Shown in pieces: positions 15,694 to 40,184 of a DNA stretch of 40,783 nucleotides. Both the position numbers and the translations under genes were made by a program. The stretch is from Clostridiales bacterium (GTDB lineage: Bacteria > Bacillota_A > Clostridia > Christensenellales > Borkfalkiaceae). Below the pieces are notes generated by a model. The model was not told the DNA's origin. It saw only the letters and a program-made list of their open reading frames with translations, and searched no databases. The DNA lies in assembly GCA_015055785.1 (NCBI GenBank), contig SVHQ01000002.1, forward strand, positions 1 to 40,783, given 5' to 3'. Each line of letters begins with the position of its first letter. The first letter of the stretch is position 1.

Positions 15694-15920
15694 GTGAATT
15701 GCAAGCATAGCTCGCGTGAATTTTCGCTTCGCTCAGTGAATTGCTCACATACGTTCGCGTGAATTGCCAACGTACCGTTGGCGTTGCGGTAAGGATTTAT
15801 AAATAATAGCCACAACGCGAACCATAGGTTTGCAATTCACGTTTTCAAAGAAAACAATTCACGTTGCCATAGGCAACACTTCACGCCCGAAGGGCAATTC
15901 ACTTATATAGGGCAATTCAC
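15694..15920 (+). repeat. Mirror-image hairpin-repeat array with empty core (gyrB-gyrA gap)
   Basis: Left half: GTGAATTG at 15694, 15736 and 15759, with the variant GTGAATTT at 15716. Right half: its complement CAATTCAC at 15833, 15855, 15895 and 15913, with the variant CACTTCAC at 15877. Most spacers are self-complementary, for example GCCAACGTACCGTTGGC, GTTTTCAAAGAAAAC, GTTGCCATAGGCAAC and GCCCGAAGGGC. The centre (15781-15817) reads GCGTTGCGG, about 20 nt of AT-rich DNA, then CCACAACGC, which pairs with it with one mismatch. The layout matches the array around the four-helix-bundle gene at 39.6-40.2 kb, but without a gene. Confidence 0.9.
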
Positions 15921-39607: not shown

Positions 39608-39709
39608 GTGAATTGCAACGCAAGCGTTGCGTGAATTGAAAACCTATGGTTTTCGTGAATTGCATTCTGCGAATGCGTGAATTGCAATGCAAGCATTGCG
39701 TTGAGGGAA
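39608..39709 (+). repeat. Left arm of the hairpin-repeat element: four GTGAATTG units
   Basis: GTGAATTG at 39608, 39631, 39655 and 39677 (periods 22-24). Each is followed by a different palindromic spacer: CAACGCAAGCGTTGC, AAAACCTATGGTTTTC, CATTCTGCGAATGC, CAATGCAAGCATTGC (with the last G of the repeat each is a perfect 6-7 bp hairpin). The arm ends GCGTTGAGG just before the four-helix-bundle gene. Confidence 0.92.
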
Positions 39710-39716
39710 TATTAAA

Positions 39717-40070
39717 ATGGCGGAAGAGAAACTAATAGACCTATCTAAAAGTTTTGCAATACATATCGTGAATATTTGCAAAGAGATAAGAGAAAATCGT
39801 AATGAGAAAGTTTTGGTTAATCAATTATTACGTAGTGGCACAAGTATCGGTGCAAATATCCACGAAGCAAATTATGCAAGTAGCCGTGCCGATTTTGTTA
39901 ATAAATTACAAATAGCCTTAAAAGAATGTTTCGAAACGGAGTACTGGTTGGATATTCTTCAAAAAACAGAGTATTTGGAGTTGATAGAATATCAACGATT
40001 ATATGAGGATTGTAGCAAAATTAGGAAAAAGTTAAGTGCGTCTATTACGACGGCAAAGCAAAAATTATAA
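39717..40070 (+). CDS. Four-helix-bundle protein (23S-IVS/Avd-like)
   Basis: A 117-residue protein of the four-helix-bundle family (TIGR02436, 23S rRNA-intervening-sequence protein, related to the Avd accessory protein of diversity-generating retroelements). The typical block is [48 protein letters not shown]. The family is widespread; its known gene sites include inserts in 23S rRNA, and no enzyme activity is established. Here it is enclosed by hairpin-repeat arms whose ends (GCGTTGAGG at 39698-39706 and CCACAACG at 40078-40085) can pair. I infer that the gene is cargo or the encoded partner of this element. No reverse transcriptase or variable repeat, as expected for a diversity-generating retroelement, is seen nearby. 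Confidence 0.93.
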
Positions 40071-40077
40071 AATTTAG

Positions 40078-40184
40078 CCACAACGAATTGATGGCAAAGC
40101 CAACAATTCAATTCACTGAGCGTAAGCGAAAATTCACGCCAACGAAAGTTGGCAATTCACGAAAGGCAAAGCCTTTCAATTCAC
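40078..40184 (+). repeat. Right arm of the hairpin-repeat element: CAATTCAC units
   Basis: CCACAACG at the inner end, then the hairpin GAATTG-A-TGGC AAA GCCA-A-CAATTC (40085-40109). CAATTCAC follows at 40109, 40153 and 40177, with the variant AAATTCAC at 40130. Spacers include GCCAAC GAAA GTTGGC and GAAAGGC AAA GCCTTTC, both perfect. One spacer (TGAGCGTAAGCGA) is the inverse of a spacer in the gyrB-gyrA array. Confidence 0.9.

Follow-up and report, generated by a model that had tools for sequence, protein, structure and literature searches.

Intervening sequences (IVSs) that carry an S23p gene within rRNA are an already known kind of element. In the available text on the 23S rRNA IVS of Coxiella burnetii, this 428-nt insert has an S23p open reading frame (ORF), a 28-bp terminal stem and heptameric repeats (GACAGAT) beside the ORF and is excised by RNase III, and S23p is judged probably not to be made in vivo (PMC4990558). 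Dispersed heptamers have been described as GGGAATC in Xanthomonas and GGGGA(C/T)T in Nostoc (PMC4692102) and as TAACTGA in Beggiatoaceae, cyanobacteria and Bacteroidetes (PMC4679880). As far as the available text of these two papers goes, they form intergenic arrays of a 7-nt word, with 70 and 75 convergent (inverted) pairs in Xanthomonas, as does the element described here; unlike it, they are tied to no four-helix-bundle (4HB) gene, and 4HB or S23 terms are absent from both papers. Structures have been solved for the S23p family, and its relatives number in the thousands (at least 7,918 at E ≤ 1e-10 among 8,000 candidates scored), yet no function is given for it in the papers that we found.

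The locus to be compared with these systems lies in a stretch of 40,783 nucleotides, here called the window, which we placed in the genus of genome G003 or very near it (its glnS is 95% identical over 191 amino acids to those of G051 and G002). The window carries fhs (formate-tetrahydrofolate ligase), then a 117-amino-acid ORF, then the start of glnS. The ORF belongs to an element of ∼580 nt, and a gene-less copy lies elsewhere in the window:

39608..39698, + strand: left arm, with words GTGAATT(G) at 39608, 39631, 39655 and 39677 and a hairpin after each
39699..39706, + strand: left half of the closing core helix, CGTTGAGG
39717..40070, + strand: gene for a 117-amino-acid four-helix-bundle protein (S23p, 23S rRNA-intervening-sequence family; TIGR02436, PF05635)
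40078..40085, + strand: right half of the closing core helix, CCACAACG
40086..40184, + strand: right arm, with words (C)AATTCAC at 40109, 40131 (variant), 40153 and 40177 and hairpins between them
15694..15920, + strand: gene-less array, with left words at 15694, 15736 and 15759 (plus a variant) and right words at 15833, 15855, 15895 and 15913 (plus a variant)

This anatomy agrees with the initial annotation, which had described a 4HB gene enclosed by mirror-image arrays of a short repeat with palindromic spacers. The left array consists of four exact copies of GTGAATTG on the + strand, and the right array of three exact copies of CAATTCAC and the variant at 40131-40137 (AATTCAC, with the leading C missing). 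On the left, every spacer is a perfect hairpin; on the right, all but one (40117-40130) of three are, and the predicted closing helix CGTTGAGG/CCACAACG is present with one mismatch. Counting both strands of the whole window, GTGAATTG occurs 14 times, half of them at the fhs-glnS element and the other 7 at 15694-15920; 100 dinucleotide shuffles gave a mean of 2.33 and a maximum of 5. Arms of 33 nt are 85% complementary (39631-39663 versus 40152-40184), and the minimum free energy RNA fold of the element (−155.2 kcal/mol, z −4.9) was not equaled by any of 100 shuffles. The arms had further been proposed to pair in register into a tree: the fold does beat shuffles, but it pairs 39631-39663 with 40152-40184 and is not fully in register. 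Full register of hairpin-interleaved arms would amount to stacked four-way junctions, of which the predicted fold shows part. CRISPR had been dismissed from the start, and we agree, given that, in place of direct repeats, unique spacers and cas genes (the last judged from the neighbors), we found 7-nt words in two inverted arms, self-complementary spacers and the neighbors fhs and glnS. As in the 23S rRNA IVS (available text of PMC4990558), an S23p/PF05635 ORF sits in the loop of a terminal inverted repeat with heptamers nearby, and the whole is small (428 nt in Coxiella versus ∼580 nt). Unlike the IVS, the window element has protein genes as neighbors, carries hairpins between the words of both arms, and has gene-less copies dispersed in the genome. 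Since it is situated between fhs and glnS, and no Rfam family, rRNA included, matched anywhere in the window at gathering score, we do not file it as a 23S rRNA IVS but only as an element that may work like one.

The 117-amino-acid ORF matches TIGR02436 (E 2.6e-30) and PF05635 (E 1.8e-26), and its predicted structure has four helices with a mean pLDDT of 95.5; no PADLOC or PHROGs match was found for it. The fold matches 2RLD, 2GSC and Avd of diversity-generating retroelements (4DWL; TM ∼0.79). Avd, which PDB record titles (4DWL, 8UBE) place in a ribonucleoprotein with a reverse transcriptase, shares this fold but only 14% identity in the alignment, and the neighbors of the window gene are fhs and glnS. 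The leads that had been drawn from the protein, to 23S rRNA inserts and to Avd, were both right, the former because other loci of the family lie inside 23S rRNA (see below).

The repeat itself needs to be redefined. Instead of the 8-nt unit first assumed, it is better read as the 7-nt word GTGAATT followed by a hairpin, since the eighth base, G, pairs with the C that precedes the next word. Among 173 spacers (140 distinct) between GTGAATT words of the window and 48 chosen loci, 152 start with G and end with C, and 128 can form a Watson-Crick stem of ≥4 bp inward from the spacer ends, versus 2 of 173 after each spacer was shuffled. Positions 2 to 6 of the distinct stem-bearing spacers show three or four pair types each, where pairing at positions 1-4 is given by how these spacers were selected. 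Across these spacers, the sequence differs while the predicted pairing is kept.

The array at 15694-15920, which the initial annotation had not reported in this finding, lies between gyrB and gyrA. It shares arms and core with the fhs-glnS element, the core reading GTTGCGG, 20 nt and CCACAAC, with the 20 AT-rich bases in the place of the gene, and its RNA fold (z −6.3) is better than all 200 shuffles. To gain an idea of how widespread such arrays are, we searched 57 genomes of the window's genus for GTGAATT-N10-20-GTGAATT, which occurs in 28 of them with up to 159 matches per genome; the reversed pattern gave 0 matches in all 57. TIGR02436 was found in 20 of the 57 genomes, at 27 places. The 14 array-rich genomes (at least 11 matches) divide evenly into 7 with and 7 without a TIGR02436 match, but these are drafts, in which absence is not proof. 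In this search of related Clostridia, a dependence of the arrays on a 4HB gene in the same genome found no support. Nor can an array of GTGAATTG around a 4HB gene serve as the defining unit, as most GTGAATT arrays lack the gene and many other words are in use at 4HB genes. A wider scan returned at least 120 genome-contig stretches with word arrays, many of them Clostridia metagenome-assembled genomes with bilateral gene-less arrays and others simple tandem repeats in other phyla, and a viral scan returned 10 stretches. Of 22 distinct gene-less cores lying between two left and two right words, 12 have both core halves, all of them from the window and loci of its genus. In L164 and L174, the closing core is altered on both sides (CATTGCGG/CCGCAATG and AAGTTGAGG/CCATAACTT, respectively). 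Separately, five Bacteroidetes and Acidobacteria contigs (L119, L116, L014, L041 and L054) carry bilateral GTGAATTG/CAATTCAC tandem arrays without hairpin units.

REP, REPIN, BIME and MITE-like hairpin repeats are short, dispersed, noncoding palindromic units that occur many times per genome, often as inverted pairs. Hairpin units headed by a fixed word, common inverted pairs and many gene-less copies would fit DNA elements of this type, propagated in single-stranded form by a Y1 transposase (of the RAYT or IS200 type) with the 4HB gene as a passenger. We consider this origin quite unlikely. Full-length PF01797 was found in 4 of 14 genomes rich in arrays, compared with 7 of the 43 others, although draft status weakens absence, and none was found in the drafts G002 (101 matches) and G010 (69 matches), so that a Y1 transposase is not supported as the driver of the arrays. 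The window element also differs from REP, REPIN and BIME units in having up to eight units, two fixed-word arms around a core and, in some copies, a 4HB gene, and such an origin would leave unexplained the inverted word arms at 4HB genes of other phyla described below. The reading that we favor, and hold to be the probable one, is that of an IVS-like selfish element outside rRNA, with hairpin-interleaved arms and gene-less derivatives.

Occupied and empty sites were compared among relatives. We surveyed 51 fhs-glnS loci, of which 2 had no adjacent fhs and 49 were counted. Five of the 49 carry a 4HB gene with arrays, 1 has two words without a gene in decayed form, 16 have gaps of at most 60 nt, and 27 have other or intermediate sequence. 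Repeats standing in these gaps without a gene, which the annotation had named as the sign that would speak against an element, occurred only in the one decayed case, and 43 of the 49 loci have at most one word; the comparison of gaps leaves the element standing at this site. A single unit that remains in L185 suggests loss of the element there. The 4HB proteins at fhs-glnS (the window and 5 others) are 61-84% identical, and pN is 0.12-0.24 versus pS of 0.72-0.90 (15 pairs), indicating purifying selection and old residence. Their spacers are wholly different, while word and pairing are kept, the words being degenerate in L164. At gyrB-gyrA, 30 loci came from 56 matching genomes, with both genes visible in 28; elements are present in 3 of these (L221, L222 and, with ATGAATT as its predominant word, L225), gaps of 13-39 nt in 12, and other or intermediate sequence in 13. 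Only gene-less forms were seen among the 30 loci. No clean target-site duplication was found; a TAAGGAGATAA repeat flanking the insert at gyrB-gyrA of G065 (L221) was tried as one and rejected, as it could be a stop codon plus ribosome-binding site. The gaps at fhs-glnS and gyrB-gyrA of several relatives (L192, L204, L205, L208, L209, L219, L226, L231 and L237) also contain another dispersed intergenic repeat, starting roughly ACGTATATACTTCGCATTTC.

The variation in occupancy bears on whether the arms could be regulatory RNA, that is, untranslated-region structures through which the 4HB protein regulates its mRNA, with the gene-less arrays forming a posttranscriptional regulon in operons. The arms do flank or precede the gene, both window arrays sit between codirectional genes, and the protein is under purifying selection. 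Presence at the same gene pair nevertheless varies between close relatives, positions vary, the adjacent genes are unrelated and insertions also occur inside 23S rRNA and RNase P RNA, and gene-less arrays are numerous in genomes in which no TIGR02436 was found. On balance, we regard such a regulatory role as unlikely.

To assess whether inverted arms accompany 4HB genes in general, we first looked at 24 array-bearing genomes, 15 of which have 4HB matches (57 places, 30 loci), and found inverted arrays with other words, e.g., ATGATGT, GTTATGA, GTGAAGT and ATATCGA. As these genomes had been selected for arrays, we then sought TIGR02436 in evenly drawn genomes, with matches in 42 of 249 Bacillota and 88 of 118 Bacteroidota. 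The best new loci (29 Bacillota and 30 Bacteroidota) and then lower-scoring ones (20 and 20, one of which was dropped for a short flank) were tested against 30 plus 30 loci of HU (PF00216) from the same phyla, a conserved housekeeping gene rather than an accessory one. A one-mismatch heptamer score proved too noisy, and we used instead exact inverted 8-mer pairing between the upstream and downstream 300 nt, judged against dinucleotide shuffles (p ≤ 0.01), together with a mismatched-flank control, in which the upstream flank was paired with downstream flanks of other loci (rank p ≤ 0.05). Flanks were inverted beyond shuffles at 25 of 48 Bacillota loci (16/29 best and 9/19 lower scoring) and 18 of 50 Bacteroidota loci (9/30 and 9/20), versus 2 of 60 HU loci (2/30 and 0/30), and the mismatched-flank control was passed by 28/48, 21/50 and 3/60, respectively. 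The biased sets gave 20/28 (array-selected genomes) and 19/29 (other phyla from array-selected genomes) in the shuffle test and 18/28 and 18/29 in the mismatched-flank control. Within the genus (L161-L183, 21 of 23 loci kept), 10/21 have inverted flanks, 11/21 pass with a whole array upstream of the gene, and 18/21 pass with either layout; only 4/21 pass the mismatched-flank control, in a set whose words recur between loci and whose arrays often lie entirely upstream. In L162, L163, L167, L170, L172, L176, L181 and L183, the array follows this second layout, with both arms complete and lying upstream of the 4HB gene. Since the shuffle test was failed by 23 of 48 Bacillota and 32 of 50 Bacteroidota loci, about half of those sampled, the plan is not universal or decays. 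On these flank comparisons, the association is clear against the HU controls, and the plan appears to be general, with a word that differs between loci; we found no consensus uniting all words.

The arms take two forms. Upstream autocorrelation of 4HB loci shows peaks at lags of 7, 14, 21 and 28 in Bacillota and, more weakly, of 7, 14 and 21 in Bacteroidota. Strong lag-7 tandem repeats occur at 21/48 Bacillota, 15/29 other-phyla, 10/29 array-selected, 5/50 Bacteroidota, 2/21 genus and 1/60 HU loci. We infer that the word-hairpin arms of the window and the tandem heptamers are two forms of a single plan; the genus 4HB loci have no lag-7 peak upstream, and their form may have descended from tandem heptamers. 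Replication slippage, by which heptamer and hairpin repeats would grow and accumulate near weakly constrained genes, might be invoked here. Heptamer repeats are over-represented in many bacteria (PMC4692102, in its available text), and one arm of L137 is a tandem expansion of a two-unit block. Slippage, however, gives no inverted arms around one gene family (2 or 3 of 60 HU loci) and neither self-complementary spacers nor a shared core, and we deem it very improbable as the explanation. The block in question expands the fhs-glnS right arm of L193/L137, with about five copies in tandem, and contains GCCAAC..GTTGGC and GAAAAC..GTTTTC hairpins with words.

We chose 36 4HB domains, of which two were partial and left out; in the tree of the other 34, proteins cluster by word irrespective of site and genome: GTGAAGT in L174, L179 and L144 (100/100), CGATAT words in L160, L176 and L183 (100/99), GTTATGA in L173 and L138 (100/98), and ATGATGT in L146 and L148 (100/94) with ATGATAT of L154 (92/93). 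Exceptions are L182 (ATGATAT), which falls elsewhere, and the forks around the row of the window, which are weak. For a quantitative comparison, we used the loci in which an inverted 7-mer recurs (140 of 173) and removed 64 pairs sharing a flanking gene. At least two 6-mers are shared by 33 of 68 pairs at ≥60% protein identity, by 23 of 373 at 50-60% and by 34 of 4,940 under 28%, and the Mantel r of 0.20 was reached in none of 2,000 permutations (largest, 0.052). Closely related proteins at different sites therefore tend to share a word, to judge by these pairs. Some pairs speak against a strict code: among L265, L266, L267 and L270, four listed pairs are 67-72% identical and three of them share no 6-mers, as is also the case for L143 and L159 at 73% identity. 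We also considered a concerted switch of word at def-fmt (ATGAATT in L171; GTGAAGT in L174 and L179), which the tree disfavors: the L171 protein groups with L165, L156 and L139 (91/91, not strong), and L174 and L179 with L144 from another site (100/100). The copies at def-fmt seem to represent distinct lineages. We propose that the 4HB protein probably acts on the arms of its own element, but the correlation between word and protein is accounted for equally well by recognition and by common descent of whole elements.

We ran Rfam on 44 4HB loci (29 Bacillota and 15 from other phyla, four of them picked for rRNA-like flanks). L275, L281 and L282 lie inside 23S rRNA matches and L287 and L290 inside RNase P RNA matches. 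The RNase P RNA insert is ∼400 nt long, sits at model position 136/137 in an apical loop and has heptamer-like arms at its ends, and such interrupting elements are seen at L287, L290, L483 (1501-2275, − strand) and L484, from two genomes. RNase P RNA is expected to be essential, and the single RNase P RNA that RF00010 detected in each of G121 and G195 is the interrupted one, which makes the question of excision a sharp one. In the proposed mechanism, the two inverted arms, which repeat a single 7-nt word and here alternate it with hairpins, hold an S23p-type 4HB gene in their loop, and the element sits between codirectional genes rather than within the 23S rRNA gene. As RNA, the arms could close around the gene as a branched double-stranded stem; host RNase III, we infer, would cut this stem, as has been shown for 23S rRNA IVSs, and either the insert would be released or the host transcript would be functional in pieces, so that an insertion would be tolerated even within 23S rRNA or RNase P RNA. 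After loss of the gene, copies could persist and spread as nonautonomous arrays, and the word would be inherited with the protein lineage but drift.

A broader reading, which we put forward as tentative and somewhat doubtful, is that these loci belong to a widespread, undescribed mobile superfamily that passes through an RNA stage, the 23S rRNA IVS being only its best-known insertion. Its S23p/Avd-like protein would read a private 7-nt word and, with host or other enzymes, copy and expand arms and disseminate arrays without the gene in trans; such elements would then have left many of the orphan heptamer repeats known from bacteria. In the part of the literature covered, we found no title or abstract that connects heptamer arms with 4HB genes generally or describes a 4HB insert in RNase P RNA, and we did not find the non-rRNA placement, private words, hairpin arms, gene-less swarms or RNase P RNA insertion described there. 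The frequent association with inverted word arrays offers a candidate ligand for the S23p family, and it would connect the IVSs of 23S rRNA with heptamer repeats that lack an explanation and with the gene-less hairpin arrays found in this Clostridia genus.

As an additional observation, a tRNA or transfer-messenger RNA (tmRNA) gene is present in the fetched stretch of 12 of 53 4HB loci from one set (L131-L183), versus 1 of 59 from another (L264-L322) and 1 of 60 HU loci. In most of these 12 loci (L140, L142, L143, L152, L154, L166, L169, L170, L172, L177, L178 and L182), it lies just upstream of the array.
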